A stretch of 64,000 nt of DNA from Rhodovastum atsumiense. Lineage in GTDB: Bacteria > Pseudomonadota > Alphaproteobacteria > Acetobacterales > Acetobacteraceae. A program made the translations under genes and the position numbers. Positions 38,872 to 57,950 of the stretch are shown here, piece after piece. Location of the stretch: NCBI RefSeq assembly GCF_937425535.1, contig NZ_OW485601.1, forward strand, positions 4,633,501 to 4,697,500. Direction: 5' to 3'. How positions within the stretch are numbered: position 1 is the first letter of the stretch; each line of letters opens with the position of its first letter. Under the pieces are notes generated by a model. It saw nothing but the letters and a program-made list of their open reading frames with translations. It did no database searches and was not told the DNA's origin.

Positions 38872-38890
38872 CCACAACAATCCGGAGCGA

Positions 38891-39061: not shown

Positions 39062-39064
39062 GAC

Positions 39065-40666: not shown

Positions 40667-40679
40667 GGGGAGAAAGCGC

Positions 40680-41117: not shown

Positions 41118-41119
41118 GC

Positions 41120-41580: not shown

Positions 41581-41715
41581 CCCTACGATGTGGCCTTCGC
41601 ACTGGAACCTTTCGAACGGATCGCCCATCTGGTGGTGTTCGCCGAACAGGGCGATCCGGGCGGTAAGGGCGGCAGGTGGGATTGGGAAGCGATGCGGCTG
41701 GCCGAGGCCGGCTGA
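41527..41715 (+). CDS. Tail assembly chaperone, -1 frame extension (T-like)
   Basis: Open in the -1 frame from the slip site to TGA at 41713-41715, 62 codons, with no plausible start of its own. It reads LTQDAEFRQCLALVRRGVPYDV..ERIAHLVVFAEQ, ending WDWEAMRLAEAG. Frameshifting would give a 198-residue fusion (136+62). This matches the two-form chaperones that coat the tape measure during assembly. Confidence 0.78.
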   Translation: MTQDAEFRQCLALVRRGVPYDVAFALEPFERIAHLVVFAEQGDPGGKGGRWDWEAMRLAEAG

Positions 41716-41738
41716 CCGCCCCCCTGGTCCCGTCGGCG

Positions 41739-42770: not shown

Positions 42771-42853
42771 GGCTTCACCCCCTTGGGTTTTGTTGGTTCC
42801 CATAACTGGGCAGATGCGACGCTGAGTTCGTGTGTCAGGAAAAAGCCTGGGTC

Positions 42854-42874
42854 GGTATTTGATCGATAAATACC
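42854..42874. promoter_or_regulatory. Inverted repeat upstream of the lectin gene
   Basis: GGTATTT-GATCGAT-AAATACC, perfect 7-bp arms around an ATCGAT core, 84 nt before the lectin ATG. A candidate operator. Confidence 0.4.
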
Positions 42875-42935
42875 AATAAAAGTAGTACTGATATTTTTCT
42901 TTAACCGGATAGATCAGACATAAATACCAAAGCGC

Positions 42936-42957
42936 ATTTGCATCGATTGATGCAAAT
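42936..42957. promoter_or_regulatory. Perfect 9-bp inverted repeat
   Basis: ATTTGCATC-GATT-GATGCAAAT. It lies between the divergent lectin and tail genes; operator or hairpin, direction unknown. Confidence 0.4.
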
Positions 42958-43109
42958 CAAGCTCTTGTGTGATTTTGCAGAAATCAGGGAGTTTCATTGT
43001 TATATATTTCGCATTTACGCCCTCGCGGTGTGCCGATCAAACCGGTGCGGCGGGATTTCGGTGTTGGCCATTAACGATGGCGTGTGGCGCAACCAGGGAT
43101 GACCGGGAC

Positions 43110-43553
43110 ATGTCCGAAGCCACCATTCCCGCCTTCGTGGACAGGCTCCATCACGGTCTGCGGGAGTTGGGGCCCGCCATCGAGACAGTCCTGCGCGAGG
43201 CCGCGCTGACGCTGCGGGAGCGGGCCGGCACGGCGCTCGGTTCCGCCCCGCCCGACCTGGAACCGGGCGGTCCGCCCGAACCGCCCGTCGATCTTGCCGA
43301 GGTCATCCGCATCCGGGTGCAGGGAGGTGCGGCCATTGTCGGTATCCCCGAGAGCGGGGGCCATGACGCGGGCAGGCCGCGACCTGCCCGGGATGCCGCC
43401 GAACTGGCGGTGGCGCGCGAATTCGGTTCCTTCGAAGCGGCCGGTGCCGTCCCGGCACGGCCCTTCCTCGGGCCGGCAGCGGCGGAGATGGCGCCGCGTC
43501 TTGCCGCCGACATCGCCCGACGCCTCGTCGCCGGGCTGCTGCCGCCACGCTGA
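43110..43553 (+). CDS. Phage gp10-like (HK97-type neck/tail completion) protein
   Basis: 147 residues. The N-terminal helix DRLHHGLRELGPAIETVLREAALTLRERAG, a central short strand pair, and the C-terminal pattern AREFGSFEAAGAVPARPFLGPAAAEMAPRLAADIARRL match the layout of HK97 gp10/tail-terminator-type proteins (E-x-G, then P-x-RPFL). ATG 43110 is chosen over an upstream in-frame start in AT-rich DNA. It lies after the lectin insertion and before the tape measure. Confidence 0.65.
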   Translation: MSEATIPAFVDRLHHGLRELGPAIETVLREAALTLRERAGTALGSAPPDLEPGGPPEPPVDLAEVIRIRVQGGAAIVGIPESGGHDAGRPRPARDAAELAVAREFGSFEAAGAVPARPFLGPAAAEMAPRLAADIARRLVAGLLPPR

Positions 43554-43616
43554 CACGACACCGTTGCTGTAATCAAACATTCGGCCGCCATGGCGGCGGC
43601 CTGGCAGGGGGCGCGC

Positions 43617-44954
43617 ATGCTGGAAGCCTTCCGCATCGGCGTGATGCTGAACCTGGAGAGCAACGCGCCGGACGTGTTGAGCGGCATCGGCCGCGACCTG
43701 CTCGGGGTTCAGCAGGGGGCGGGCGCAGCGACGGCGGCCCTGGGCCGGTTCCGCGCGGCCTGGGCCGGGGTGGCCGGGGTGACGCCCGGGCCGGCGGCGC
43801 TGGCGCTGCTGCGCAGCCTGGAGACGCAACGGGAGAGCCTGGCGCGACAGCAGGTGGCGTGGCGCGGCACCGCGGTGGCCGGCGGGGAGGTTCGCGTCGC
43901 GACCGATGCCATCGGCGGCGCGCTGCCGTTCGCGCCGGACCCGCAACGGACGGGTCGGAGCATCGCCGGTGCCGGCAGTGCCGCGCCCGTGGCTGGCGCC
44001 GCGATGCCGGATGCGCCGGCCTTGCTGGCGCGGATGCTGCGGGGGCTGCCCGACCGGGCCGAGCCGCCGCCACGGCCCGGCCTCTTCGATGACATGGGGC
44101 CAATGATGGCGGCGCCTCGCCCGTGGCGTGGCGCCGGCGAGGGAGGGGCGGCGGAGGCGAAGGCGGACAGCCCGGCTGGTGGCGGCATGGGCGACATGAT
44201 CACGGCGTTGCGCGAGGTGGTGCAGGCGACGCGGCTGGCGCAGGGGCGTGGGCAGCCGGAGACGGCGACCCCGGCCGGGAGCCTGGTCGATGGCATCGCC
44301 GGGAGCAGGGGCGACCTTCGTGACGGCGTGCGGCATGAGATGCCGGCATCGTGGCCGTTGCCGCGGCCGCTGCATGTCGGCGAAGAATTTGTCGCGCGGC
44401 GTCCGGAGCGGGGGGGGGCTTTGCCCCGCAGGGGCACCGGCCTGCCGCTGGTGCCGCCGCGACCGGCGATGATCGGGGATGGCCGCGTTTCCGCCGCTGC
44501 CGGAGTGCCGCGACACGAGGCATCGATCGGGACCGCGCTGGCCGGCATGGCATCGGCGCTGACCCGGTTCGGTCTGCGGCCCGGCATTGGGGGAGGGGCG
44601 GACGCAGTGCCGGTCGCCGGCGTCGCCGCAGCAGGGCATCCCGGTGGGATCGACCATCTCCTCCCGGGCGTGGTGGCACCCGCGGGGCTGCCTTTCGCCC
44701 GGCCCGATGCCGAGGCCCTGCGGTGGCGTGGCCTCGCGGAGCCGGATGGCGAGCGGGCACGGCCGCGCGAGGGCGAAGCCGGTGGCCGCGACCAGGCGGC
44801 GTCCGGTGCCGGCTCCGGCCGGGACCTGGTGCTGAACGTGACGCTGGCCGTGGACGGACACGAACTGGCCCGTACCCTGGCACGCCTCGGCGACGGGCCG
44901 CTTTCCGGCACCGGCAGCTTCGACGGACGGCGCAACATGCTGACGGCGGCCTGA
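43617..44954 (+). CDS. Short, atypical tape measure protein
   Basis: 446 residues from ATG 43617 (ATG 43590 possible). The N-terminus IGVMLNLESNAPDVLSGIGRDLLG resembles tape measure starts. The rest is Pro/Arg/Gly/Ala-rich with little coiled coil, and the usual hydrophobic segments are absent. The end (LVLNVTLAVDGHELARTLARL) is ordered again. Position after the frameshifted chaperone supports the role. If about 0.15 nm per residue applies, the tail would be short, near 65-70 nm. It may be a reduced or decaying version. Confidence 0.6.
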   Translation: MLEAFRIGVMLNLESNAPDVLSGIGRDLLGVQQGAGAATAALGRFRAAWAGVAGVTPGPAALALLRSLETQRESLARQQVAWRGTAVAGGEVRVATDAIGGALPFAPDPQRTGRSIAGAGSAAPVAGAAMPDAPALLARMLRGLPDRAEPPPRPGLFDDMGPMMAAPRPWRGAGEGGAAEAKADSPAGGGMGDMITALREVVQATRLAQGRGQPETATPAGSLVDGIAGSRGDLRDGVRHEMPASWPLPRPLHVGEEFVARRPERGGALPRRGTGLPLVPPRPAMIGDGRVSAAAGVPRHEASIGTALAGMASALTRFGLRPGIGGGADAVPVAGVAAAGHPGGIDHLLPGVVAPAGLPFARPDAEALRWRGLAEPDGERARPREGEAGGRDQAASGAGSGRDLVLNVTLAVDGHELARTLARLGDGPLSGTGSFDGRRNMLTAA

Positions 44955-45019
44955 GCGGGGGCGGCCGGTTCCCGCGGCAAGGCGTGGCGGCGCAACAAGG
45001 CGCGGAGGCAGCCGATCCC

Positions 45020-45778
45020 ATGGCGGACACTTATCTGACCCTCGGCGGGATGTCGTTCATCGACGACTTCACCGTGCCGGAGGCGATCAATGGCGGCGGC
45101 ACGCATCACGTCGTGCTGCACCGCTTCATCGGCGGCGCCCGCGTCATCGACGCACTGGGCCCCGATGACGACGCGATCCGCTGGCGAGGCCGCTTCCGCG
45201 GTGCCGATGCCAGTTTCCGCGTGGCCATGCTGGACGTGATGCGCCGGTCCGGCCGGCCGGTGATCCTGTCCTACTGGACCTTCCGCTACCGCGTGGTGGT
45301 GACGCGCTTCGTCTGGCGGTTCGAGCGGTTCTACGAGATCGCCTATGCCATCGAATGCACGGTGGTGCAGGACCTGAAGGCACGCGCCTGGACCGCGGTG
45401 GCGAGCGGGCTGGACAGCCTGTTCGGGGCCGACCTGTCGCTGGCCGAGATGCTCGGGGTCGGTGCCGCCGCGGTGAACGACGCCCTGGCGGCGGTCCTGA
45501 TGGCGCAGGCGGCGGCGGGGAGCCTGGGGACGGCGACCCGCTCCGGGCTTGGCGGCGTGCTGTCAGCCGTCACCATGGCGGTTTCGGTCGCGGCCACCGC
45601 CAGCATGGCGGCGGAGACGATGGCGGGGTCGGTGGGCGGCGTGGAGGCCGGTGGCGATCCGCAGGCGATGGGGGCGGGGCTGGTGGCCAGCGGCAACGCC
45701 TTCCAGGAGGCGGCTGCGGGGGTGCAGGCCGGCGGCGTGTTCAGCCGGATGCGGGCCAATCTGGAGGCGGGCGGATGA
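45020..45778 (+). CDS. Phage tail protein (P2 gpU-like N-terminus)
   Basis: 252 residues. The first 120 residues (DDAIRWRGRFRGADASFRVAMLDVMRRSGRPVILSYWTFRYRVVVTRF) have the order seen in P2 gpU tail-terminator proteins: a grid-like strand, helix, then strands. The C-terminal half is Ala/Gly-rich helix. ATG 45020 follows GGAGGCAGCCGATCCC. A 211-bp AT-rich gap and a chemoreceptor follow, interrupting the tail genes. Confidence 0.6.
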   Translation: MADTYLTLGGMSFIDDFTVPEAINGGGTHHVVLHRFIGGARVIDALGPDDDAIRWRGRFRGADASFRVAMLDVMRRSGRPVILSYWTFRYRVVVTRFVWRFERFYEIAYAIECTVVQDLKARAWTAVASGLDSLFGADLSLAEMLGVGAAAVNDALAAVLMAQAAAGSLGTATRSGLGGVLSAVTMAVSVAATASMAAETMAGSVGGVEAGGDPQAMGAGLVASGNAFQEAAAGVQAGGVFSRMRANLEAGG

Positions 45779-45989
45779 AGCCACGCCGCTCTCCGTCATG
45801 CCAGGGCCTGCTGGAAAATATGAAAACAGAAAATAAAATGGATTATAGATATTTATTTCCTGGCAATCATGTTTGGTAATGTTGGAATGTGGATTTGGTT
45901 TGTATTTGGTCTGCGGATTTAGCTAGGTACATCGCTTGTTGACTTTTGGTTGCAAGTGGCCTGGGACAGAGCGGGCTGGGAATGATGAC
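45779..45989. other. AT-rich gap before the chemoreceptor
   Basis: 211 bp, strikingly AT-rich between 45815 and 45925, between the gpU-like gene and the chemoreceptor. TTGACT at 45939 lacks a convincing -10. It probably came with the inserted gene. No other feature. Confidence 0.4.
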
Positions 45990-48179
45990 ATGCGTCTGAA
46001 CGAACCGGTCACGAATCGGGAAATCGAGGTTCCCGCGGATGCGCCGCTGGTTTCGAGCACGGACACGACGGGCCGCATTACGTTCGTGAACCGTGCCTTC
46101 CAGCAGGTGAGTGGCTTTTCCCGCGACGAACTGATCGGTCAGCCGCACAATCTGGTGCGCCATCCGCACATGCCCAAGGAGGCCTTCGCCAATCTGTGGG
46201 CCACCATCAAGGCCGGCCGTCCGTGGGAAGGGTTGGTCAAGAACCGCACCAAGAGCGGGGATTTCTACTGGGTACGAGCCAACGTCGCGCCGATCATCGA
46301 GGCAGGGCGTGTCGTCGGCTACATTTCGATCCGCAGCCGGCCGGCCCGCGAGGAAATTGCCGGCGCCGAGGCCGCCTATGCCGCCCTGCGCGGTGGCACC
46401 GGCCAGGGGATCGATCTGAACGACGGCCAGATCCTGCGCCGGGGTTTGATGGCGGCGTTGCGTACGGCCTTCTTAAGCCTCAGTGGTCGGATTGGCGGCA
46501 GCTTCGGGTTGCTGACCCTGGCGCTGGTCCTGGTGGGATGGCTCGGGTTGCACGGCATCACGCAGTCCAATCAGGCGTTGTCGGGCGTGTTCCATGAAGA
46601 AGTCGGCGGCATCGTCCAGGTCACCGCGATCGAGAAGAACATCCATGACACCATGCGCAACGCCATGGCGCTGGCCTATGACCGCGAGGGCCATGGCGGC
46701 CGGACGCCCTCGGAACGGATCCGGATTCTTCGCGAGCTGAATGAACGTGGCGAGGCCGCCTGGCGCAGCTTCGCCGCGCATGGCATGCACGCGGAGGAGC
46801 GCCGACTCGCCGATGAATTCGCCACCCGGCGTGAAGCCTTCAACCGCGACGGCGTGGCGCGGGTGATGGCGCTGGGCGAGGTGGGAGATTTCACCGCTGC
46901 CCAGGATCTGGTCGAGCGCCAGTTGCTGCCCCTGTTCCGCTCGACGGCGAAAGCGGCCGAAGCCCTGGAGGCGTTCCAGGTGCGTCAGGTCAAGGACGTG
47001 TACGATACCGCCGAAGCTGCCTTTAACGGCCAGTTCTGGAGCGTGATCGGCATCGTCCTGGCTTGCTGCGCCGCCGCGGTGGCGTTGGGCTGGATGCTGC
47101 TGAGGACGGTCGGGCGGCCGTTGCGCGAGCTCGAGAGCTATTTCACCCACATTGCCCAGGGCGATTTCACCCGGCCGATCACCATGCCGTCGGCGCGTGA
47201 ATTCTGGAGCATCATCCGCCTGCTGCGCACGATGCGCGCGCGCATGGGCTACGATGCTTCCGTCCGGAACGAACTGGAGCAGGAAGCGGTGCTGCAGCGT
47301 CGCGACGCGGTGCGGGAGATGGCACAGACCATCGAGCGCGACGCCAGCGCTGCCATGGAGCGGCTGGGCCAGCAGACCGACGCCATGGCCGGCGAAGCGG
47401 GGGTGATGGCACAGGCAGCCGAGCGCGTCAGCGGCAATGCCGCGCGCGTCGCCGAGGCGGCGCAGCGCGCGGAGAGCAACACCAATCGCGTTGACGCGGC
47501 CAGCCAGCAGCTCAGCGGCTCGGTGCGCGAAATTTCCACCCAGGTGCAACGCGCCTCTCAGCTCGCGCAGGAGGCGGTGCACAGCGCCGGGCAGGCGCAG
47601 GAGCGGATCCATTCGCTTTCAGAGATGGCCGGGCAGATCAGCGCGGTGGTCAACCTGATCGGCGACGTGGCCCGCCAGACCAACCTGCTGGCGCTGAACG
47701 CCACCATCGAGGCGGCGCGCGCTGGCGAGGCGGGGCGCGGCTTCGCGGTGGTGGCGGTCGAAGTGAAGAACCTCGCGGTGCAGACCAGCCGCTCCACCGA
47801 GGAAATCTCGCGACAGGTGACCGATATCCAGGGCGCCACCGGGGCAGCGGTGAGCGCCGTCGCCGAGATCACCAGGGCGATTGACCGCATGGCACAGGTC
47901 TCGGACACCATCGCCGCCGCGGTGGCCGAGCAGGCCACGGCCACGCAGGAAATCGCCCGCAACGTGGCGGAAAGCAGCGCCGCGGTGCTGGCGGTCAGCC
48001 GCAGCATCGCCGAGGTGGCGGAGGATGCCGTGGCGAGCGGCTCGGTGGCCGGGAAGGTCAAGGGCGGCACGACGTCGCTTGCGGGCGGCGTGGGCGAACT
48101 GCGTGGCATCATCCTCGACAGCGTGCGCAACGCCACCGACAACGCCGAACGCCGGGTGCGGGAAGGCCGCAATGGGTAA
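45990..48179 (+). CDS. PAS-domain methyl-accepting chemotaxis protein (Aer-like N-terminus) within the tail operon
   Basis: 729 residues. A cytoplasmic PAS domain (about 15-115: [20 protein letters not shown], then [14 protein letters not shown]) resembles Aer. TM1 follows at about 160-185, a four-helix-type periplasmic domain, TM2 ([20 protein letters not shown]), HAMP, and a signalling domain with tip [19 protein letters not shown]. Unlike the two receptors at 5-10 kb it has no PilZ domain. ATG 45990 is preferred over 45936. It separates gpU-like and LysM-like tail genes and is followed by repeats B and A. Confidence 0.9.
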
Positions 48180-48189
48180 GGCCCGGCAG

Positions 48190-48260
48190 CGGCGGGGCGT
48201 CGCCCCGCGCCCCACCAGGGCTTCGCCCTGGACCGACCAAGGGCTCCGCCCTTGGAACCC
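48190..48260 (+). repeat. Intergenic three-hairpin repeat, family B (copy 2)
   Basis: GGGGC-GTC-GCCCC, CCAGGGC-TTC-GCCCTGG and CCAAGGGC-TCC-GCCCTTGG, then AACCC. The middle stem differs from copy 1 on both arms while remaining paired. It is directly followed by family A copy 4. Confidence 0.7.
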
Positions 48261-48267
48261 ATTTTCT

Positions 48268-48338
48268 GCTGCGCAGCGCGATTGGGGTGCAGAGGCCTGC
48301 TGGCCCCTGCCGGGTCCAGGGCAGAGCCCTGGCCTTCT
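48268..48338 (+). repeat. Intergenic hairpin repeat, family A (copy 4)
   Basis: TGCGCAGCG, GCAGAGGCC-TGCT-GGCCCCTGC (one mismatch), CCAGGGC-AGA-GCCCTGG. It stands 7 bp after a family B copy and ends 12 bp before the LysM-like gene. Confidence 0.7.
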
Positions 48339-48350
48339 CGGAGCAAGCGG

Positions 48351-48551
48351 ATGAGCGCGAAAACGATCACTGTGGCCGGCGGCAACCTGTTCCGGATTGC
48401 CGCCGAGGAACTCGGCGATGCGACGCAATGGGATCGCATCGCCCGGCTGAACGGGCTGTGGGATCCGATGCTGACCGGCGTAGTGACGCTGCGCATCCCC
48501 GCCCCGGCCGGCGAAGGACAGACCACCGATGGCATCCTCGGCCTGCCATGA
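48351..48551 (+). CDS. Phage tail protein X-like (LysM-type)
   Basis: 66 residues: NLFRIAAEELGDATQWDRIARLNGL is the classic LysM-like helix-turn-helix of P2 gpX and related baseplate-linked proteins. ATG 48351 follows the family A repeat with GGAGCAAGCGG upstream. The stop overlaps the gpD-like start (ATGA). It probably acts at the tail/baseplate hub. Confidence 0.78.
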   Translation: MSAKTITVAGGNLFRIAAEELGDATQWDRIARLNGLWDPMLTGVVTLRIPAPAGEGQTTDGILGLP

Positions 48552-49660
48552 GCGGCATCCTGGTGATCCCCGCACCGGATGTGCGGGCGCCGCGCATCGC
48601 CATGCGGGTCAACGGCCAGTTCGTGCCGGGGTTGCTGCGCTTCTCCGTTGCCAGCAACAACTACTGGTCGGCGGATCTGTTCAGCGCTCACCTGGCGAGT
48701 TCGGCGCTGCCGCGCGGCCACGGCCCGGCGTACTGGGCCGATACCGACGCGATCGACCTGGAATTGCTGGCCTGGCTGGAGGGCCGGACGCAGCCGGCGA
48801 CGATCATCCGCGGCCTGGTCGACCAGGTGGCGGTCGGGCTGGAGCAGGGCACCATCGTGCTGCGCGGACGCGACTACGCCAGCCTGCTGATCGACACCCG
48901 CACCAGCGAGAAATTTCCCAACCAGACGCTGTCGCAGATCGCGCACATGCTCGCCGAACGGCGCGGCCTGGAAGCGGACGTGACCGAGACCACCGTCAAG
49001 GCCGGCGACTACTACAAGGGCGAGCACGTGCAGATGAGCGATGCAGTGTCGGAATGGACGCTGCTGACCTGGCTCGTCGAGCGCGAGGGGCTGGATGTGT
49101 GGGTGAGCGACCGCACGCTGCATGTGCGCGAGCCGCCGGCGGTGGAGTTGCCGCCGCTGGGCATCCTGTACAACCCGGCCGATGCGGTCGAGGGCACGAT
49201 GCGCGCGAACGCGCCGGTGATCGCGCTGGAGCGCAACCTGACGCTCGCGCGCGACATCCAGGTCACGGTGCGGTCCTGGAACCACGAGCAGAAGGCGGCG
49301 ATCACGGTGACGCGGCGCGGCACCCGCATCCGCCGGCCGGTGGAGCGCATGCGCTCGCAGAACCTGCCACCGCACAGCTACGTCTTTACCGTGCCAGGAC
49401 TGACGCGCGTGCAGGCCGAGCAGCTTGCCGAGAAGAAGCTCGCGGAGCTGAGCCGGCACGAGCGCACGTTGCTGCTGCAGGGGCTGCCGGCGGTGCCGGG
49501 GCTGACGGTGCGGCGCAGGCTGCGCCTGTCCGGCACCGGCACCGCCTTCGACCAGGATTACTTCATCGTCGAGATGGATCGCGAGTTCAGCTTCGACTGC
49601 GGCTCGCGCATGAGCCTGCGCTGCAAGAACAGCAGCCCGCGCAACCAGGTCACGCTGTAG
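48548..49660 (+). CDS. P2 gpD-like baseplate hub protein
   Basis: 370 residues. The N-terminal barrel (RIAMRVNGQFVPGLLRFSVAS) and GRDYASLLIDTRTSEKFPNQTLSQI, then the C-terminal barrel (RAQAEQLAEKKLAEL-type helix and LRLSGTGTAFDQDYFIVEMD) match the phage late control D/VgrG-gp27 fold. It forms the trimeric hub under the spike. It follows the X-like gene by overlap and precedes the spike gene by 7 nt. Confidence 0.85.
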   Translation: MSGILVIPAPDVRAPRIAMRVNGQFVPGLLRFSVASNNYWSADLFSAHLASSALPRGHGPAYWADTDAIDLELLAWLEGRTQPATIIRGLVDQVAVGLEQGTIVLRGRDYASLLIDTRTSEKFPNQTLSQIAHMLAERRGLEADVTETTVKAGDYYKGEHVQMSDAVSEWTLLTWLVEREGLDVWVSDRTLHVREPPAVELPPLGILYNPADAVEGTMRANAPVIALERNLTLARDIQVTVRSWNHEQKAAITVTRRGTRIRRPVERMRSQNLPPHSYVFTVPGLTRVQAEQLAEKKLAELSRHERTLLLQGLPAVPGLTVRRRLRLSGTGTAFDQDYFIVEMDREFSFDCGSRMSLRCKNSSPRNQVTL

Positions 49661-49667
49661 GGGCACC

Positions 49668-50303
49668 ATGGACGATCTGCTGAACCTGATCCGGCGCGAG
49701 GCGGAGCGGGCGGTGCGCGGGCTGGCGCAGCCGCGCGCCGCCGTGGTCACCAGCTACGACCCCGACCGCCACGCGGTGAAGGTGCTGTTCGGCGAGGACG
49801 GCACCGAAAGCCAGTGGCTGGCGCTGTCGCCGGCCTGGGCCGGCAATGGCTGGGGGCTGTATTGCGGCCCGGTGCCGGGGACGCAGGTGGCGGTGTCCTT
49901 CCTGGGCGGCGCGGTCGGCACCGGCATGGTAACCGGGCATTTGCCGAATTTGCAGGACCGGCCGCCGGCGGTGCCGGCCGGGGAGGCGTGGCTGGTGCAC
50001 CAGTCGGGTGCGCGCATCCGGCTGCTGAACGGCGGCACCGCGGAGATCAACGCGCGGGTGGTGCAGGTGACCGGCGCCGAGGCGGTGCGCGTGGACGGGC
50101 CGGCGGGGGTGACCATCACCGCGCCGACCACGCATGTCATCGGCGACCTGCTGGTTTCCGGCGAGATCGCCGACCATGACGGGGCGCATCACACCTTTGG
50201 CTACCTGCGTGACGCCTACAACGCGCATGGCCATCCGGTGCCCTGGGTGGAGCCCGGCCCCGCCACGGTGACCAGCGACATCACCAACCGCACGGTGCCC
50301 TGA
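49668..50303 (+). CDS. Baseplate spike protein (P2 gpV-like)
   Basis: 211 residues. An N-terminal OB-fold region (AVVTSYDPDRHAVKVLFGEDGTESQWL...GPVPGTQVAVSFLGG) is followed by strands rich in V/T/G (NGGTAEINARVVQVTG, GVTITAPTTHVIGDLLVSG) that form the spike beta-helix. A His-rich tip (HDGAHHTF, NAHGHPVP) suggests the metal-bound apex known for gpV. It overlaps the gpW gene by one base. Confidence 0.87.
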   Translation: MDDLLNLIRREAERAVRGLAQPRAAVVTSYDPDRHAVKVLFGEDGTESQWLALSPAWAGNGWGLYCGPVPGTQVAVSFLGGAVGTGMVTGHLPNLQDRPPAVPAGEAWLVHQSGARIRLLNGGTAEINARVVQVTGAEAVRVDGPAGVTITAPTTHVIGDLLVSGEIADHDGAHHTFGYLRDAYNAHGHPVPWVEPGPATVTSDITNRTVP

Positions 50304-50677
50304 TGGCGGATCTGTCCCATGTCTGGTCCGGCGATTTCGCCATGGCCCCCGGCGGCGACCTGCTGCTGGCGAGCGGGTCGGAAGCGGGGCGGCAACGCGT
50401 GCTGCGCCGCCTGCTGACCACGCCCGGGGAGTATATCTGGCAGCCCGAGTACGGCGCCGGGCTGCCGGGCCAGATCGGCGCGCTGACCGGCGATGCGGCG
50501 CTGCAGGCGATCGTGCTGACGCAGATGCTGCAGGAGGACGCGGTAGCACAGGATCCGCCGCCGGTGGTGACGGTGACGCGGCCGAGCCCGGGCATCGTGG
50601 CGATCGGCATCCAGTACCAGGACGCGCAGACCGGGGAGGCGGTGCTGCTGGGCTTTTCCGTCGCCGCGGAGGCGTAG
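50303..50677 (+). CDS. Baseplate wedge protein (P2 gpW/T4 gp25-like)
   Basis: 124 residues. The motif GSEAGRQRVLRRLLTTPGEYIWQPEYGAGLPGQIG is diagnostic for gpW/gp25: the RRLLT helix and the E-Y-G-x-G loop. The start overlaps the spike stop. In P2-like order gpJ should follow directly, but four minus-strand curli-type genes come first. Confidence 0.9.
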   Translation: MADLSHVWSGDFAMAPGGDLLLASGSEAGRQRVLRRLLTTPGEYIWQPEYGAGLPGQIGALTGDAALQAIVLTQMLQEDAVAQDPPPVVTVTRPSPGIVAIGIQYQDAQTGEAVLLGFSVAAEA

Positions 50678-50710
50678 CCGACGCGCCGGCACGATGCCGG
50701 CGGCCGGGCG

Positions 50711-51181
50711 TTACGGCACGGTGTCGAGCACTTTGCCCTTCACCGTCATCAGTTCCTCCGACGGCGGCAATGCGTCGAGGATCTGGCTGGAGCCGGCATA
50801 GACGAAGCGACGGTTATCGCCGAGCGAGACGGATTTCACCGAGGAATCGCTGGTGATGCGCACCGGGACGCGGATGCATTCATCGAGCGGGGCGATCTCG
50901 GCGTCCAGGATGGTCTCCAGCCGGAGTTGCCATTTGTCGCCGTTGAATTGTGCCAGCGGATCGTCGGCGCGGCCGTCGTCGCGGAACAGCGTGCCAGCCG
51001 GGATCTTCAGCGACGACATCACCGGTGCCGCGAGGTCGAGGGTGCGGCAGGCGAGCAGCGTGGCGGCGTGCGCCGGGGCGACGAGGGCGAGCGCCAGGAG
51101 GGCGCCCGCCAGGATGCCGACCCCACCGGGGCCTGGCCGCGGAGGAACCGCGGCCAGGGTGGTGGAAGGATGAGCGGGCAC
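50711..51181 (-). CDS. Secreted protein at the end of the curli-type operon
   Basis: 156 residues. A signal peptide (GILAGALLALALVAPAHA) precedes a mature part of about 115 residues with two Cys (LLACRTLDL, LDECIRVP) and strand-rich sequence. It does not look like CsgE, CsgC or CsgH. It starts 4 nt after the amyloid-like gene stop, so it is likely co-expressed. An accessory or chaperone role in amyloid export is inference from location. Confidence 0.6.
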   Translation of the reverse strand: MPAHPSTTLAAVPPRPGPGGVGILAGALLALALVAPAHAATLLACRTLDLAAPVMSSLKIPAGTLFRDDGRADDPLAQFNGDKWQLRLETILDAEIAPLDECIRVPVRITSDSSVKSVSLGDNRRFVYAGSSQILDALPPSEELMTVKGKVLDTVP

Positions 51182-51185
51182 CCGG

Positions 51186-52310
51186 TTACTGGGCGATGCT
51201 CACGGTGTAGCCGGCGCCGTTGCCGGTCACGGTGCCGACATAGGTCGCATTCGCGCTTGCCTGCGTCACGACAATGCCGCTGTTGTTGGCGAGGGTGGTG
51301 CCCAGCGTATTGGTGTCGCCGCCGCTGTTGACGGTCAGGTCCAGGTAGGCGCCTGTCGCGCTTTGCGTCACCTGGATCTTGCCCGTGGCGCCGCTGGCGC
51401 CGCGCACATCGTTCAGGGCGACCTTGGCATAGGTGTTGCCGGCGGTCGACGACAGCGAGTAGTCGATCTTGCTGGTGCCGTCGGCGGTCAGGATCGAGGT
51501 CTGGTCGCCGTTCACGGTGGCCCCGGAGGCGCCGAAGTTGTTGGTTACGAAGTTGCCGCTGCTGGCGAGGGTGACGGCCACCTTCTTGTTGCCACCGCTG
51601 CCGTAGACGCTGTTGGTGACGGTGTTGTCGCTGCCGGTCACGTTCAGGCTCAGCACGGTGTCGCCGGAGCTGGCGCCTTCTCCGCTCGACGCATAGGTGT
51701 TGGTAACATTGTTGGTGATGGTGTTGCCGGCGCCGTTGACGGTCAGGCCGTAGGCGAGGCTGCCATTGACCGCGATCGTGTCCTTGATGACGTTCGGCTT
51801 CGCGGCCGCGGTCGCGTCGGTATTGGTGACGTTGACGGCGATGTTGTCGACCGACTGACCGTTGACGACACCGGTGAAGGTCTGGTCGGCGGAAATGTCG
51901 ACGAAGTGCGTATTCTTGGAGGCCTTGGTGCTGTCGGTGCTGGCGGTCGTATAGGTGCCGACGAATTTGCTGCCGGTGCCGTTCTTGACCTTGATCGTGC
52001 CAGCCAAGGTGTTGTTCGCCTTGTTCTGAGTGATGCTGACCTTGTTCCAGTCACCGCGGACGCCGAAGGGCGTGCCGGCGCCGAGGCTCGCCGCGGTGCT
52101 CTCCCCGGTGCCGGTTTTGCCGGCCACGGTGTTGGACGGAGCAGTGCTGTCCTGCTGGATAAACAGCGTGTTCACCGATCCGGCGCTATTGCTGGCGGCG
52201 TCGATGTAGATGCTGTTGGCGTTGCCCTCGGTGGTGTTCTGGGCGAAGGCCGGCACGGCGATCGCCATGGCCGCGGTCGAGGCCGCCAGAGTGAACATGA
52301 ACCTACGCAT
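51186..52310 (-). CDS. Putative curli-like amyloid subunit
   Basis: 374 residues: signal peptide (LAASTAAMAIAVPAFA), then a Asn/Thr/Ser/Gly-rich chain of short strands. Elements such as NSIYIDAASN, NTLFIQQD, NKVSITQN, GKIQVTQSATG and GIVVTQASAN recur, with the I-x-V-x-Q/N spacing of curlin-type stacked strands. The strict curlin repeat is not fully met, so a CsgA-like role rests on these repeats and on the CsgF/CsgG neighbours. AAGGAGA lies just before ATG 52310. The 54-nt gap after csgG may hold an extra stability element. Confidence 0.65.
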   Translation of the reverse strand: MRRFMFTLAASTAAMAIAVPAFAQNTTEGNANSIYIDAASNSAGSVNTLFIQQDSTAPSNTVAGKTGTGESTAASLGAGTPFGVRGDWNKVSITQNKANNTLAGTIKVKNGTGSKFVGTYTTASTDSTKASKNTHFVDISADQTFTGVVNGQSVDNIAVNVTNTDATAAAKPNVIKDTIAVNGSLAYGLTVNGAGNTITNNVTNTYASSGEGASSGDTVLSLNVTGSDNTVTNSVYGSGGNKKVAVTLASSGNFVTNNFGASGATVNGDQTSILTADGTSKIDYSLSSTAGNTYAKVALNDVRGASGATGKIQVTQSATGAYLDLTVNSGGDTNTLGTTLANNSGIVVTQASANATYVGTVTGNGAGYTVSIAQ

Positions 52311-52364
52311 AAGCTGTCTCCTTTCTGGACGACAGCCGGGCCTCCTGCGTGCCCGACCGTCGGG

Positions 52365-53135
52365 TTAGCTCCACCACTTGTCCTGGATGCCGCGGTTGAT
52401 CAGCTGGGCCAGGGCGCCACGCACGGCGACCCGCAGGGCAAGCCCGACCGGCTCGTTGCCGGCGCCGCCGAGTTCCGCTTCCATTACGTTGGTGGTGAAG
52501 ATCTTGGTCAGGTGCCCGCCGACCTTCAGCGAGGTGACCGATTTGGTAACCATGGTCTGGCCGAGCACCTCGCCGGTCTGCACGGCTACGGCACGCAGGC
52601 TGAAGGTGATCAGGTCGGTCACCAGGGTGGTGTTGCCGCCGATGCCGCCCAACGCGCCGCCTGCCGAGACCTGTCGTGTCTCGCGGTCATAGGCGACCAC
52701 CTGGCCGACCAGCAGCATTTCTGCCACGCGCAGCGTGTTCAGCTTGCGCGGGGGAGTGCCATTGGCGGCGTTGTTCAGCGCCAGCGTGGCGATCTGACGC
52801 TCGCGCAGCAATTCGTCCACGTGCTGCCGTTCGACGAGATTCAGGTATCCCCTATCGAGGGAGCGGACCGCTTCGATCAGATACGGCGTGCAGTCCATCG
52901 GCACGGCGGTGCTGAGTTCCTGTGAGGAGCCGGTTGGTCGCCTTTGGCCGGTGGTGTCGATGCAGTTGTAGACGCTGACGGTCAGTGCTCGGTGCGGCGG
53001 CGGCGGCAGTTGGATCTGTTCCGATTCAAGTGTGAACGGCTGTGCCGAGGGCAAGGGATCCTGAACGCAGCCCGCCTGTGCCAGCATCAGCACACAGGCC
53101 GTTGTCGGGCCGACGAGTGAGCGAAGTCGTCGCAT
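52365..53135 (-). CDS. csgG: Curli secretion channel CsgG
   Basis: 256 residues, an outer-membrane lipoprotein. The lipobox LAQAGC is followed by segments matching what I recall of E. coli CsgG: LTVSVYNCIDTTGQRRP, SSQELSTAVP, LNLVERQHVDELLRERQI, FSLRAVAVQTGEVLG and EPVGLALRVAVRGALAQLI. CsgG forms the nonameric pore that exports curli subunits. It starts 8 nt after csgF. Confidence 0.88.
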   Translation of the reverse strand: MRRLRSLVGPTTACVLMLAQAGCVQDPLPSAQPFTLESEQIQLPPPPHRALTVSVYNCIDTTGQRRPTGSSQELSTAVPMDCTPYLIEAVRSLDRGYLNLVERQHVDELLRERQIATLALNNAANGTPPRKLNTLRVAEMLLVGQVVAYDRETRQVSAGGALGGIGGNTTLVTDLITFSLRAVAVQTGEVLGQTMVTKSVTSLKVGGHLTKIFTTNVMEAELGGAGNEPVGLALRVAVRGALAQLINRGIQDKWWS

Positions 53136-53143
53136 GGCGCAGC

Positions 53144-53668
53144 TTATTGCCCGGTCGGTATCGACAGCGTCGTGGTGCCCTCAGCCGTGGTCATGGTGAC
53201 GTTCAACTGACCATCGGCATTGACGTATGTGATGGTGGCGCCGTTGGCGACGACCGTGCCGGCGTCACCATCTTTCGAGCCGGCGATCTTGTCGGCAATG
53301 CTGCGTGCCACCAGGGCGGTGATCTGCGCGGTCACCGTGTTGACGAAGGTCTGGCTCGGGCTGGTGGTGGTCGTTGAGGTGGCGGCCGCGGCAGCCGCCT
53401 TCGCGGCGGCTTCGCGCGCCGCGTCGCGGGACTGGACCAGGCTTTTCTCGAGCTGCGCCCGGGACAGCGCGGTGTCGTTGCTGCCGCCGAAGCTCGGTGA
53501 TTGCAGCACGTAGACCAGATCGGTGGCATGGGCCGGCATCGCCGCGAGACAGGCCAGCGTCACCGCAAGGAGCGGGACGTGCCGATTGCGGGGGCACCCA
53601 CAACCACGCCTGCCGCCACGACTGGTCGCCGGAGTTGGCTTCACATCAGCGGAACTTTGAGGGCTCAT
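53144..53668 (-). CDS. csgF: Curli assembly factor CsgF
   Basis: 174 residues. A basic N-terminal extension precedes the signal peptide (VPLLAVTLACLAAMPAHA). The mature start LVYVLQSPSFGG matches the CsgF signature 'NPNFGG' that plugs CsgG. The end ITYVNADGQLNVTMTTAEG matches the CsgF C-terminal strand pattern. The middle has an Ala/Lys helix and a Thr-rich stretch. First gene of the operon, with a candidate promoter near 54018-54045. Confidence 0.82.
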   Translation of the reverse strand: MSPQSSADVKPTPATSRGGRRGCGCPRNRHVPLLAVTLACLAAMPAHATDLVYVLQSPSFGGSNDTALSRAQLEKSLVQSRDAAREAAAKAAAAAATSTTTTSPSQTFVNTVTAQITALVARSIADKIAGSKDGDAGTVVANGATITYVNADGQLNVTMTTAEGTTTLSIPTGQ

Positions 53669-54017
53669 CCGGAAAACACTCGGCGTCGAAGGGGAAGCTG
53701 TGGGGGGATGCCTGTTCGATGCCGAACCGACATGGCCTGGCTGGGGAAGAACCAGGCGGGTGGCGATTCAGGCGAAGAAGCGAGGATCCGGGGCTCGATG
53801 TGGTCTCGGGGCCATGCGGCAAGTGCGAATGCGTCGTGGGACGGACCGGAGCGCGCGGTGCGAAGGATCTGCCTCGCATGGCGGATCCCCGTTGGCTCCG
53901 TGGACCCGCTGCATCCCTCCGACAATCACGGCGATGGTGCAGGCCCCGCATGTCATGGCTCGCTTTGCTCCTTCTGGACCGGCTCATGCGGATGAGCCCG
54001 CGATTCACGCTAATTTG

Positions 54018-54045
54018 ATAATAGCTTTCTTTTACGCTTCTGCAA
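54018..54045 (-). promoter_or_regulatory. Candidate promoter of the curli-type operon
   Basis: On the - strand TTGCAG (54045-54040) and TATTAT (54023-54018) are separated by 16 bp. It predicts a 5' leader of about 340 nt before the csgF start. Confidence 0.45.
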
Positions 54046-54078
54046 GCGAAGGGCGATTAACGGGGGTGATTAGTACCG

Positions 54079-54115
54079 TTAGGTTGCGAATGGCAACGAA
54101 TGTTATGCAACCTAA
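54079..54115. promoter_or_regulatory. Inverted repeat upstream of the curli promoter
   Basis: TTAGGTTGC (54079-54087) and GCAACCTAA (54107-54115), perfect 9-bp arms 19 bp apart, starting 33 bp upstream of the -35. This is the position for an activator site. Confidence 0.45.
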
Positions 54116-54594
54116 GGTGGAGTATACTTGGTTTCTTGTCGACAATAATGCAGTGTAAGGTGCCAGAGGCTGCAACCTTGATGGAGACATGCACCGATTT
54201 TCGATACTTTCATGCATGTCGTCTCGAATCTTGGAGCTTGCTTACTGAAATTGAGACGCTGCCCATCCCTGGGGTGTTGTCCGCCAGGCCTGGGGGATGT
54301 TCCCCACCGTTGGCGGGGAGCCTCAGTTGCAGCGCCCGGCCGGAATCGGCGGGGGCGAGGCGTGCCCCGTGGTCCGGGCCAGCGGCTGATTCAAATAGAA
54401 TTTGTATCTTTATTGTTTTGATATAGATGCGGTTAATTAATCTGAAATCTGGACCACATATTTGCCAATCACATAAGACGATCACACCAAAACATTACTG
54501 CCCCTCATCATCAGGCAGAGGGAGGGGACGTGGCCGGCACTGCCCGCCATGCCCCAGGGCCGGTGGACGCCGTTCCCGAAACAGCGGAGGGACC

Positions 54595-54648
54595 ATGTCG
54601 AACAGAAGAAAGTCCGCCCCTGGCCGCCGGCCACGGAGGGCGGCATGA
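54595..54648 (+). CDS. 17-codon basic ORF coupled to gpJ
   Basis: MSNRRKSAPGRRPRRAA, with GGAGGGACC directly before its ATG and an ATGA overlap with the gpJ start. It may be a leader ORF that loads ribosomes for gpJ, or a remnant of a longer gene. Confidence 0.3.
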   Translation: MSNRRKSAPGRRPRRAA

Positions 54649-55781
54649 GCGATTCGCTGAACACACGTGGCTTCACCACCCTGGTTGCGGCGCAGGCGGC
54701 GGTGGTGCAGGGCCGGACCGGGCGCGCCAGCCTCGACCTCGCGCCGGGCTCGGCGCTGCGGGCCATCCTGGAAGCCTTCGCCTCCGTGGCGCTGTGGCTG
54801 CAGGGGCTGGTGCTGCAGGTGCTCGCCCGTGCCCGGCTGAGCACGGCGAACGGCGCCGACGTGGACAGCTTCGTTGCCGATTACGGCATGACCCGGCTTC
54901 CCGCCACCGTCGCCTGCGGGCGGGTCAGCTTCGCCCGTTTCTCCCCGGATGCCGCCGCGCTGGTGCCGGTGGGCGCGCGCGTGGCCACCGATGACGGCTC
55001 GCAGGGCTACGAGGTGATCGTCGATGCGGCCAACCCCGCCTATGTCGTGGCGGCCGGGGGCTATCCGGTGGCGGCGGGCGTGGCCGCGGTGACCGCCAGC
55101 GTGCGCGCGCTCGCGGCGGGGGCGGCCGGCAACGCCGCCGCCGGCACCGTCACCGCGCTTGCCACCGGCCTTCCCGGCATCGATTCCTGCAGCAACGGCG
55201 CGGGGTTTTCCGGCGGCGCCGACGCCGAGACGGATGCGGCGCTGCGCGCGCGCTTCGCCGCCTATATCGCCAGCCTCGCCCGCGCCACCCGCACGGCGGT
55301 GGGCTATGCGATCTCCACGGTGCAGCAGGGCGTCACCTGGACCCTGACCGAGGGCGCCAATCCGGACGGTTCGGCCAATCCGGGATTCTTCTTCGTCGTG
55401 GTCGACGATGGCACCGGCACGCCGCCGGCCTCGCTGCTCACCGCGGTGGCCGAGGCGATCGAGGGCTACCGCGCGCTGGGCGTGCGCTGCGCGGTCTACG
55501 CGCCGTCGGTGGTGACGGCCCGGATCACGCTGGTGGTGACGGCAACGGAGGGGTACGACGCAACCGCCGTGCGCGCCGCCGTGCGGGCCGCGATCGTCGC
55601 CATGGTGAACGCCCTGCCGACCGGTGCCGCGCTGCCGTTCTATCGCGTCGCCGCCACCGCCTTCGCCACCGACGGCGTGGCCAATGTCGCCGCGGTGACG
55701 CTGAACGGCGCGACCGCCGACCTGGGCGCCACCCCCTTGCAGGTGATCCGCACCAGCCTCGCCAGTGTCACGGTGTCCTGA
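54645..55781 (+). CDS. Baseplate J-like protein (P2 gpJ)
   Basis: 378 residues. Family landmarks are a helical N-terminus with LAPGSALRAILEAFASVALWLQ, the GMTRLPATVACGRVSFAR strand, SGGADAETDAALRARFAAYIASLARAT and the C-terminal PVVTARITLVV-type region with a final V-rich strand. It is a wedge component linking baseplate to fibres. ATG 54645 is preceded by CACGGAGGG. It is separated from gpW by the curli insertion. Confidence 0.87.
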   Translation: MSDSLNTRGFTTLVAAQAAVVQGRTGRASLDLAPGSALRAILEAFASVALWLQGLVLQVLARARLSTANGADVDSFVADYGMTRLPATVACGRVSFARFSPDAAALVPVGARVATDDGSQGYEVIVDAANPAYVVAAGGYPVAAGVAAVTASVRALAAGAAGNAAAGTVTALATGLPGIDSCSNGAGFSGGADAETDAALRARFAAYIASLARATRTAVGYAISTVQQGVTWTLTEGANPDGSANPGFFFVVVDDGTGTPPASLLTAVAEAIEGYRALGVRCAVYAPSVVTARITLVVTATEGYDATAVRAAVRAAIVAMVNALPTGAALPFYRVAATAFATDGVANVAAVTLNGATADLGATPLQVIRTSLASVTVS

Positions 55782-56347
55782 TGCCGACCGGGGACCTGAA
55801 CGACATGGTCGCGCGCATGGCGGCGGTGCTGCCATCCGCGTGGTTCCCCGCCGGCGCGGCCGTGCTGCGCGACGCGCTGCTGACCGCGGCCGCTTCCTGC
55901 GGCACGCTGGTCCACGACCTGGTGCAGTTCGCCGGCGCGCAGTTGCGCGTCGCCACCGCCTCCGGCGGCTGGCTCGACCTGATCGCCTATGACTTCTTCG
56001 GCCGCGCCTTGCCGCGCCGGGGCCTGGGCGATGACAGCTACCGCCTGGCGATCCGGCGCCGGCTGCTGCGCCAGGGCGGCACGCGCGCCGGGCTCGCGGC
56101 CGAGCTGCTGGTGGCCACCGGCCGGGACCCGGCGATCATCGAGCCGTGGCGGCCGGCGGATTGCGGCGCCTGGGGTGGCGGCGTGATCGCCATCGGCTAT
56201 GGCGCGGCCGGCGCCTGGGGCTCGCTGCTGCCCTGCCAGGCCTTCGTCACCATCCCCCGCGGCGGCGCCGCCGCGGCCGACCTGCTCGCCACGGTCGCCG
56301 ATATGGCACCGGCCGGCGCAGGCGTCTGGACCGTGATCAGGAACTGA
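55781..56347 (+). CDS. Phage tail protein I-like
   Basis: 188 residues, joined to gpJ by TGATG. The pattern LDLIAYDFFGRALPRRGLGDDSYRLAIRRRLLRQGGTRAGLA followed by a Trp/Pro region (IIEPWRPADCGAWGGG) is seen in gpI-like proteins between gpJ and the fibre. Probably connects wedge to fibre. Confidence 0.75.
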   Translation: MPTGDLNDMVARMAAVLPSAWFPAGAAVLRDALLTAAASCGTLVHDLVQFAGAQLRVATASGGWLDLIAYDFFGRALPRRGLGDDSYRLAIRRRLLRQGGTRAGLAAELLVATGRDPAIIEPWRPADCGAWGGGVIAIGYGAAGAWGSLLPCQAFVTIPRGGAAAADLLATVADMAPAGAGVWTVIRN

Positions 56348-56355
56348 GGAAATCC

Positions 56356-57600
56356 ATGGACCGGGCCATCATTTATCCAGGGGCCGTGCCCCTGGAAACC
56401 GACCTGCTGTTCCCCCAGGTGGCGACGCTGCAGGCGCTCGGCGCGCTGATCGGCGCCACCCTCGGCACCACGACCGTGGCGGACGGGCTGTGGGCGACAC
56501 CGACCTCGCCCGCGAGCATGAGCCTCGTCATCGGCCAGGGCTGCCTCACCGCCTTCGGCGTCACCGATGCCGCCGGGTTCTCCAGTCTGGGGACCAATGG
56601 CGACGGCATCGTGCGCATGGGCATCAACGTCGAGCCGGTCACGATCGGTCCCTTCGCGGCCGCTCCTTCACCCGGGCAGGCGTGCAACGTGCTGATCCAG
56701 GGCGCCTTCGCCGAGACCGACGCGAATCCCGCGCTGTTGCCTTACCTGAACGCCGCCAACCCCGCGCTGCCCTTTGGCGGCCCGGGGAACAACGGCGTGG
56801 CGCAGCCGACGCGACGGCTGCAGCGGGTGGCGCTATCGGCGCGGCCGGGTACGCCGGCCACGGCGGGCCTGCAGGGGACGCCGGTCGCTGACAGCGGCTG
56901 CGTGCCGCTCTATGTGGTGACGATCCCGTACGGGACCGCCGCGCTCGGCGCCGGCAACATCGCCATCCATCCGGCCGCGCCGTTCATCCCCTTCAAGCTG
57001 CCGCAGCTCGCGCCGGGCTTCAGCAACATCCGGGCCTTCACCGCTTCGGGAAGCTGGACGGTGCCGAACGGGGTCACCCGCATCCGGGTCACCGTGGTCG
57101 GCGGCGGCGGACAGGGCGGCGGCGGCACCGACGCGCCGATCGCGCTCGGCTCGGGCGGCGGTGCCGGCGGCACCGCGGTCGGGGTCTTCGCCGTGACGCC
57201 GGGCAGCACCTGGCCGGTAACCGTCGGCGCCGGCGGCTACAACCCGACGGCGGGCACCGACGGCAGCAATGGTGGGGCCTCGAGCTTCGGGGCGCTGATC
57301 TCGGCGACCGGGGGCGCGGGCGGCAAATGCGGCACCGCCCCGGTCGGCGGCAATGGCGGGATCTGCGCCGGCGGCAACTACAATTGCATCGGTGGCGACG
57401 GCCTCGACGCCATCGTCATCAACGACGGCAACGGCAATTACGGCGGCACCGGCGGAGGCACGCCGTTCGGCACCTCCAATCGCTCCTCACGGCAGCTGAC
57501 CGGCGGGCAGGCGCCCGGCGTCGGCGGCGCGGGGGCCCCGCAGGGCATCCGTGGCGTCGGGTCGGGCGGCGCCAACGGCCTGGTCATCGTGGAGTGGTGA
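56356..57600 (+). CDS. Tail fibre protein with glycine-rich C-terminal domain
   Basis: 414 residues. An N-terminal adaptor domain (MDRAIIYPGAVPLETDLL) leads to beta-structured shaft sequence. From about 235 FTASGSWTVPNGVTRIRVTVVGGGGQGGGG begins a Gly-rich C-terminal module ending GSGGANGLVIVEW. This module is common on phage tips and resembles a polyglycine-rich adhesin. ATG 56356 has TGAGGA upstream. Receptor binding is inferred. Confidence 0.8.
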   Translation: MDRAIIYPGAVPLETDLLFPQVATLQALGALIGATLGTTTVADGLWATPTSPASMSLVIGQGCLTAFGVTDAAGFSSLGTNGDGIVRMGINVEPVTIGPFAAAPSPGQACNVLIQGAFAETDANPALLPYLNAANPALPFGGPGNNGVAQPTRRLQRVALSARPGTPATAGLQGTPVADSGCVPLYVVTIPYGTAALGAGNIAIHPAAPFIPFKLPQLAPGFSNIRAFTASGSWTVPNGVTRIRVTVVGGGGQGGGGTDAPIALGSGGGAGGTAVGVFAVTPGSTWPVTVGAGGYNPTAGTDGSNGGASSFGALISATGGAGGKCGTAPVGGNGGICAGGNYNCIGGDGLDAIVINDGNGNYGGTGGGTPFGTSNRSSRQLTGGQAPGVGGAGAPQGIRGVGSGGANGLVIVEW

Positions 57601-57602
57601 AC

Positions 57603-57950
57603 ATGTGGGCATGCATCGAGGACGGCATGGTCCGTGAGCTCACGGCCACGGATCCGGCGGGCCGCTTTCATCCGTCGCTGCTCTGGGTTGCCTGCGACGC
57701 GGCGGTGCGCGAGGGGTGGCGGTGGGATGGCACGGGCTTCGCCGCGCCGGCCGCCGCCGGTCCCGACCTTGCCGCGGCGGCGCGGCTGGCGCTGCGCGCC
57801 TCCGATATCGCCGTGCTGCGCTGCGCCGAGCACGGCGTGGCGGTGCCGGCGGTCTGGCTGACCTATCGCGAGGCGTTGCGCGCGATCGCCGCGGGCACCA
57901 CCACGGTCGCGACCCTGCCGGAGCGGCCGGAATACCCGCCCGGGACCTGA
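57603..57950 (+). CDS. Small protein after the fibre, possible fibre assembly factor
   Basis: 115 residues, 2 nt after the fibre stop. MWACIEDGMVRELTATDPAGRFHPSLLWVACD is followed by an Ala-rich helix and a YREALRAIAAGTT..LPERPEYPPG tail, the usual ending of fibre-associated small proteins. Function is inferred from location and the RPEYP-type tail. Confidence 0.6.
   Translation: MWACIEDGMVRELTATDPAGRFHPSLLWVACDAAVREGWRWDGTGFAAPAAAGPDLAAAARLALRASDIAVLRCAEHGVAVPAVWLTYREALRAIAAGTTTVATLPERPEYPPGT

Follow-up and report, generated by a model that had tools for sequence, protein, structure and literature searches.

A 64,000-nucleotide stretch of the Rhodovastum atsumiense genome (hereafter, the window), taken from a 6.48-Mb contig (C1) of a 7.42-Mb, nine-contig assembly rated 100% complete, carries a four-gene curli-like operon between two baseplate genes of a prophage. 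We favor, with moderate confidence, the reading that a curli-like (type VIII secretion) operon of host type entered the baseplate genes of a prophage in a single piece and that this prophage is probably cryptic today. The operon lies on the minus strand and consists of csgF (53144..53668, 174 aa), csgG (52365..53135, 256 aa), a gene encoding a Gly/Thr/Asn-rich repeat protein (51186..52310, 374 aa), and a gene that we refer to as p4 (50711..51181, 156 aa). It separates a gpW-like baseplate/sheath initiator gene (50303..50677) from a gpJ-like baseplate gene (54645..55781), both of which are on the plus strand. Because the four ORFs are conserved together at other loci, they are not a chance set of reading frames. 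The 976 bp between csgF and gpJ (53669..54644) contain no called gene and are presumed to be the regulatory region of the operon. Their GC content is 58% overall, with two AT-rich blocks at 46% and 35%; they contain no sigma-70-like or terminator-like site and no Rfam match, and no similar DNA was found in the csg loci compared.

The flanking genes identify the site as a junction that is normally closed. gpJ was recognized by both PF04865 (Baseplate_J, E 1e-31) and PHROG 6 (E 3e-48), with both values computed on a longer ORF from 54549, and gpW was recognized by PHROG baseplate families (E values down to 2.8e-6) and by a match to the sheath-initiator family PF10934 that is below the cut-off (E 8.9e-5). 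In the window, the two genes are 3,967 bp apart. The first-pass annotation, which was made from the sequence alone, had proposed that they are otherwise adjacent, and this was borne out: gpW and gpJ were uninterrupted in 51 of 52 related tail clusters (−12 to +91 bp apart, median 0), and the single miss was a contig that ends before gpW (L080). They are also 69 bp apart in the isolated Komagataeibacter phage phiKX1. The 52 loci each came from a different record or place, after exclusion of one that had no gpW match (L047). gpJ was found in 113 of 299 genomes, and the 30 best places from that search were taken as loci, with the window itself among them. The 51 junctions are not all independent, because several viral pairs, such as L082/L083, L086/L087, and L091/L092, each seem to represent a single phage. 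The window keeps the P2-type V-W-J-I order of baseplate genes, but W and J are not contiguous. We obtained no syntenic empty site; murI was found at E ≤ 1e-30 in two of seven genomes of the genus, including the R. atsumiense genome itself, and the second of these genomes has it on a 9-kb contig without a match to any other window gene. Three further Baseplate_J clusters occur in the same assembly, on the small contigs C5, C8, and C6, and those on C5 and C8 have an uninterrupted gpW-gpJ junction.

The assignment of the first two genes of the operon, also proposed by the first-pass annotation, was confirmed by matches over the Pfam cut-offs. CsgF matched PF10614 with E 8.4e-16 (58.8 bits against a cut-off of 25.8), and CsgG matched PF03783 with E 1.7e-32 (112.9 bits against a cut-off of 20.8). 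The start codon of csgF is uncertain, and the gene caller preferred a later start at 53563. When family profiles were compared with known structures, CsgG matched the E. coli CsgG structures with E 8e-33. CsgF matched CsgF structures with E 0.003 to 0.29 and ranked them below WD-40 repeat proteins, which top this search through the summing of many weak stretches. CsgG is presumed to be an outer-membrane secretion pore. The 11 aligned CsgG proteins of the window's subtype have an invariant Q-E-L where E. coli has S-N-F just before STAVP, a stretch that we take to line the pore constriction. No CsgE match was found with Pfam among the four operon ORFs; the rest of the genome was not searched with the CsgE model. 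The lack of CsgE and CsgC had been regarded as odd, a view that does not fit published work: the available text of Dueholm et al., 2012 (PMC3521004), reports curli operons of Alphaproteobacteria that lack CsgC, CsgD, and CsgE.

The operon belongs to a subtype with relatives on bacterial contigs. A second csgF/csgG copy lies 0.29 Mb away on the same contig (C1:4398207-4399416); the four genes at that locus (L025) follow one another just as they do in the window. Ten further relatives were found in GTDB contigs from Acetobacteraceae, Telmatospirillum, other Rhodospirillales, and Caulobacter and Phenylobacterium (Caulobacteraceae); L023 and L028 are on the same contig. csgF, csgG, and the repeat gene were present in all ten, and p4 was present in eight, the remaining two contigs ending before p4. 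Window CsgF is 44–48% identical to 10 homologues, and window CsgG is 64–73% identical to 10; in the contig scan that yielded the ten relatives, the CsgG identities were 62–71%. Among the blastp matches listed, no neighbor of the csg genes at the ten loci matched a window phage gene; the non-csg neighbors in csg loci that did match window genes were a transporter, an enolase-type protein, and a methyl-accepting chemotaxis protein (MCP). In the comparison of related genomes suggested by the first-pass annotation, the csg operon occurred elsewhere, at 10 loci with no window phage gene among the matches listed, and gpW-csg-gpJ was found at none of the 51 junctions. The subtype is rare. CsgG was detected at E 1e-5 in 4 of 150 genomes of the family, with two (including the R. 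atsumiense genome) above 70% identity, and a class-wide survey of 385 genomes found the subtype only in the R. atsumiense genome and distant CsgG proteins (32–36% identity) in five others.

In a CsgG tree, the 11 subtype sequences were split with 100/100 support from eight others, which include canonical alphaproteobacterial CsgGs and those of the phages Melnitz and HTVC008M. Subtype CsgGs are 25–32% identical to three CsgGs of the family that adjoin Gln-rich curlin-like genes. We rejected the idea that the window copy is a recent duplicate of L025, as the L025 CsgG is closer to that of an Acetobacteraceae contig (L015, 79%) than to that of the window (72%). The placement of the window CsgG is unsettled: it stands beside L025 and L015 at 81/88 in one tree and with other sequences at 94/92 in another. 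The GC content at third codon positions (GC3) is 0.79–0.81 in csgF and csgG and 0.91–0.93 in gpW, gpJ, and the sheath gene. Taken together, the separation in the tree, the relations of L025, and the GC3 values suggest that a host operon type entered the phage cluster, and not the reverse. In comparisons with L025, L015, and L016, dN/dS was 0.22–0.26 for csgG, and it was 0.28–0.42 for p4 against the kin tested.

Gly, Thr, Asn, Ser, and Ala are abundant in the repeat protein, which contains no cysteine and has a signal-like N-terminus (signal peptides of this protein and of p4 were judged by eye). It is 35–43% identical to nine homologues at the same position in their operons. The first-pass annotation had treated it as a curlin, and this did not hold: of the models that it had proposed to apply, those for CsgF and CsgG match, and the curlin repeat (PF07012) was found neither in the repeat protein nor anywhere in the genome at E ≤ 1. 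In a control, 3 of 14 genomes were positive for PF07012, including that of E. coli. The motif Q-x4-N-x5-Q is also absent, with 0 occurrences in 10 repeat-family homologues as against 19 in curlin-like controls. The turn motif G-x-x-N-x-beta is enriched, occurring 55 times in the repeat family as against 24.5 ± 4.8 (maximum 39) in 300 shuffles; three curlin-like controls likewise hold more of it than expected (36 against 7.0). A profile of the repeat protein aligned to three curlin-like proteins with probability 60 and E 8.6e-5, over only the signal peptide and the first ~100 residues. AF2 models the protein as 24 short strands in succession (pLDDT 68, pTM 0.73). Neither the repeat protein nor p4 had a convincing Pfam, PHROG, or NCBIfam family. 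Because PF07012 finds no curlin repeat in the genome, the adjoining repeat protein is the likely substrate of CsgG, presumably a secreted fiber or adhesin subunit without canonical curlin repeats. At two other loci, an extra gene with a signal-like N-terminus directly follows p4 (6919-7671 in L018 and 12527-13291 in L019); the product of the L019 gene resembles the repeat protein (36% over 135 aa) and is perhaps a second subunit.

The p4 gene directly follows the repeat gene in the window, in the eight GTDB loci that include p4, and in L025. Its product has a signal-like N-terminus and is 51–73% identical to nine homologues; C45 and C102, which are 57 residues apart, are invariant in 10 sequences. 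The AF2 model has a beta fold (pLDDT 74, pTM 0.64). Searches with the profile and with the single sequence found no PDB sequence match and no CsgC or CsgH, in a library whose inclusion of the CsgH entry 2N59 was unchecked. CsgC and CsgH are amyloid-inhibiting chaperones, and the available text of PMC4838910 describes CsgH as having a pI more than 2 units above that of the subunit. p4 resembles them in being small, presumably exported, and predicted to be beta-rich, in having two sequence-distant cysteines, and in that its gene adjoins the subunit gene; it differs from them in lacking sequence similarity and, in the window pair, a raised pI (4.71 for p4 and 5.07 for the subunit). Of 10 loci, 8 have a p4 whose pI exceeds that of the subunit, with a difference of no more than 1.7 units, so the CsgH margin was not found. 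On the basis of its place and its cysteine pattern, which resemble those of CsgH as described in the portion of PMC4838910 available to us, we infer that p4 is an export chaperone or periplasmic helper of the subunit. A Foldseek search with the p4 model gave a phi812 baseplate protein as the best match (E 6e-3, probability 1.00, TM 0.39, rmsd 5.3), followed by baseplate proteins of cyanophage A-1(L) and Mu and then by many EF-Tu-like barrels, none of which reached E 0.001. A baseplate protein is a suggestive identity for p4 given its neighborhood. We took the match as a weak beta-barrel match and dropped this identity, because p4 is conserved beside csg genes around which no window phage gene appeared among the matches listed.

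The recognized family matches of the prophage late-gene cluster extend on the plus strand from terminase to tail-fiber genes (25321..57950) and include terminase, portal, P22-type coat, sheath, baseplate, and fiber genes; small ORFs beyond the cluster, to about 59.2 kb, had no PHROG match. The description of the cluster as P2-like is apt for the order of the baseplate genes and goes no further, as the head genes are of the P22-coat/DUF4055-portal kind. No PF00589 integrase was found within 400 kb on the contig, a search that did not include other recombinases. In addition to the csg operon, the cluster has four units that would be atypical among the late genes of a phage: between terminase and portal, a PQQ/NHL beta-propeller protein (27323-28507, minus strand); between head and connector genes, a pectate-lyase-like protein of 877 aa (33447-36080, plus strand), which, like the propeller protein, has a signal-like N-terminus; an FG-GAP repeat protein encoded on the opposite strand within the tail cluster (41739-42803, minus strand); and a PAS-4HB/Tar-MCP chemoreceptor recognized by family match, also within the tail cluster (45990..48179, plus strand). 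None of the four matched anything in 88 related viral contigs. For the propeller, FG-GAP, and MCP genes, this absence is weak evidence, because the contigs are mostly coat-centered (3 reach terminase and 13 reach gpX). Nor did the FG-GAP and MCP genes match anything in the related tail loci compared. One of the three viral contigs that reach terminase has a terminase-portal gap of 1,465 bp, as against 1,501 bp in the window. Weak matches to tail-spike PHROGs suggest that the pectate-lyase-like protein may simply be a tail spike whose slot varies among phages, as does the corresponding gap of about 3.1 kb in L105, whose coat protein is 83% identical.

The MCP gene occupies a 2.57-kb gap before gpX; in the 19 relatives in which both neighbors are present, this gap does not exceed 154 bp. 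The genome has 68 matches to the MCP signaling domain, including that of the window, and many of them are at 3.2–5.0 Mb of C1. Elsewhere in the genome, the window MCP has its best match (47%, E 1e-180) in the MCP whose gene lies immediately upstream of the second csg operon. The next matches are at 39% (E 3e-131) and, with lower scores, a gene on contig C2 in two pieces (55% over 180 residues and 42% over ~370). The MCP beside the second csg operon has a C-terminal PilZ domain, which the window MCP lacks. These relations hint that MCP and csg genes moved together, though gpX, gpD, gpV, and gpW split them in the window. The linkage is shown only within the R. atsumiense genome. As a conserved trait, it was rejected: when 14 other csg loci, some with short flanks and two of them the loci that share a contig, were searched with both MCPs, only L024 had a weak match, near its end.

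In the mechanism that we propose, CsgG would form a nonameric outer-membrane pore capped by CsgF. The repeat protein would cross the inner membrane via Sec and would be held unfolded by p4, standing in for CsgC, CsgH, or CsgE; it would then exit through CsgG and assemble at the cell surface as a non-canonical curlin-like fiber or adhesin. The AT-rich stretch upstream of csgF would probably drive the operon independently of the phage.

Several observations weigh against the insertion of a host operon into a cryptic prophage or against the proposed role of its products. Every phage structural ORF looked at is open, which is not required of a long-dead prophage, and the integrase search covered PF00589, with serine integrases, transposases, and excision outside it. 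The GC3 values are not uniformly low in the operon (0.90 for the repeat gene and 0.84 for p4, with 0.86 for chromosomal murI), and the CsgG branch of the window is slightly longer (0.18) than those of L025 (0.16) and L015 (0.14). dN/dS is higher for csgF (0.51–0.59) and the repeat gene (0.45–0.63) than for csgG, and as these ratios span the whole divergence, they are no evidence of selection since the insertion. For the repeat protein, PF07012 is a short model; among three Gln-rich curlin-like controls, only one passes it, a second reaches E 0.34, and the remaining one goes undetected. G-x-x-N counted by itself is unexceptional (63 against 46.6, shuffle maximum 65), the looser pattern Q-x-G-x(1-3)-N occurs 9 times against 3.4 in shuffles, and the shuffles count related sequences as independent. 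The structural model is of modest confidence and has no significant structural match, the weak ones being largely beta-helix proteins.

Of the two origins that the first-pass annotation had offered, a chromosomal locus that settled in a dead prophage fits better than cargo that supplies lysogens with a biofilm matrix. The subtype otherwise occurs in bacterial contigs without matches to these phage genes, short peptide-pattern scans did not find it in viral contigs, phage records held CsgGs of 33–35% identity at best, and there is no PF00589 integrase nearby; this last point and the other host-like genes in the cluster also favor a chromosomal segment over cargo dispersed by phage. Lysogenic conversion by such a "moron," in which an inducible temperate phage gives its lysogens a surface fiber as proposed for the curli genes of marine phages, nevertheless retains a modest probability. 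In its favor, the structural genes are open, the csg cassette runs on the minus strand within a late operon and brings an AT-rich upstream region of its own, and phage-borne CsgG exists. The first-pass annotation had known of no phage with curli genes, and here the literature corrects it: CsgF and CsgG have been published for marine phages, operons are described in the available text of PMC7029224, PMC9004378, and PMC9599517, and we found CsgG in 7 phage records (four of Melnitz strains, two of HTVC008M, and one of a Salmonella phage, which is 1,499 bp long and carries no annotation). These CsgGs are distant, at 33–35% identity at best. Those of Melnitz and HTVC008M fall in the other clade of the tree, and we rejected descent from these two phages. 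No relative of CsgG or p4 was found in viral contigs by scans for short peptide patterns, which may miss distant kin, and csg genes are not at the gpW-gpJ junction in the 51 loci or in phiKX1.

Rather less probable than phage cargo is a domesticated tailocin-like or gene-transfer-agent-like element that the host has kept and that accumulated surface and sensory genes, so that the csg operon would sit in a host-controlled island. The recognition of only late genes by family matches, the missing PF00589 integrase, the four other atypical units, and the fact that each of the two csg copies has a nearby MCP of one subfamily would all suit such an element. gpJ is only 46–51% identical to those of the other five gpJ-bearing genomes of the genus, unlike what is expected of a vertically kept element, and the pectate-lyase-like gene perhaps encodes an ordinary tail spike at a variable position. 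A more elaborate form of this idea, which we regard as doubtful and put slightly lower still, is that a new curli-like subtype and a kindred PAS chemoreceptor were taken into a domesticated phage late-gene cluster, giving an island that senses and decorates the cell surface; its fiber would keep the strand-GxxN-strand turn, not the Gln/Asn ladder, and would have its own periplasmic helper. It is very improbable that the assembly is chimeric here, with a csg segment of the chromosome wrongly joined to phage genes. Nothing directly suggests one, beyond the fact that csg is at gpW-gpJ in no relative compared. The locus lies within a single 6.48-Mb contig of a complete-rated assembly, both flanks are whole genes, and the window CsgG is too different from the other copy in the genome (72% identity) to have been misplaced from there.

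The window adds a chromosomal prophage to the phage-linked curli genes, which are otherwise those of the marine phages in the available texts of PMC7029224, PMC9004378, and PMC9599517. A second point of interest is the rare csgF-csgG subtype itself, since its likely substrate cannot be recognized as a curlin. If it is true that this substrate forms fibers via CsgG and CsgF, the sequence requirements for functional amyloid and for CsgG export are wider than the curlin repeat.

In Caulobacter, the holdfast is anchored by HfaABD, in which a CsgG-family pore serves a surface adhesin. The window operon differs from this system in having csgF, and the NCBIfam HfaB model gave only a weak match (E 0.0029, with 16.8 bits where the cut-off is 300). 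With the alphaproteobacterial curli operons in the available text of PMC3521004, the window operon shares CsgF and CsgG, an adjoining repeat protein, and the lack of a recognized csgC, csgD, or csgE in the operon; it departs from them in that the repeat protein has no curlin repeat, the fourth gene is not recognizably csgH, and its CsgG forms a clade of its own. Among phages, CsgF and CsgG have been reported for pelagimyophages (PMC7029224), the Methylophilales phage Melnitz (PMC9004378), and podoviral pelagiphages (PMC9599517), as far as the available texts go, and the authors of PMC7029224 state there that theirs is, to their knowledge, the first report of a phage-coded secretion system of this kind. 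Among the listed titles and abstract openings of papers on curli or type VIII secretion in phages, we found no report of a csg operon inside a prophage tail cluster, which does not prove that none exists. According to the annotations, the type VIII systems of pelagiphages and Melnitz share with the window the order csgF-csgG-subunit in a tailed phage. The Melnitz subunits match PF07012, whereas the window repeat protein does not; Melnitz and HTVC008M have an adenylate/guanylate cyclase gene beside csg, with a FecR gene also in Melnitz, and no baseplate gene is annotated within 9–10 kb around csg in either. The pelagiphages and Melnitz are isolated marine phages, whereas the window operon is in a chromosomal prophage and encodes a CsgG of the other clade.

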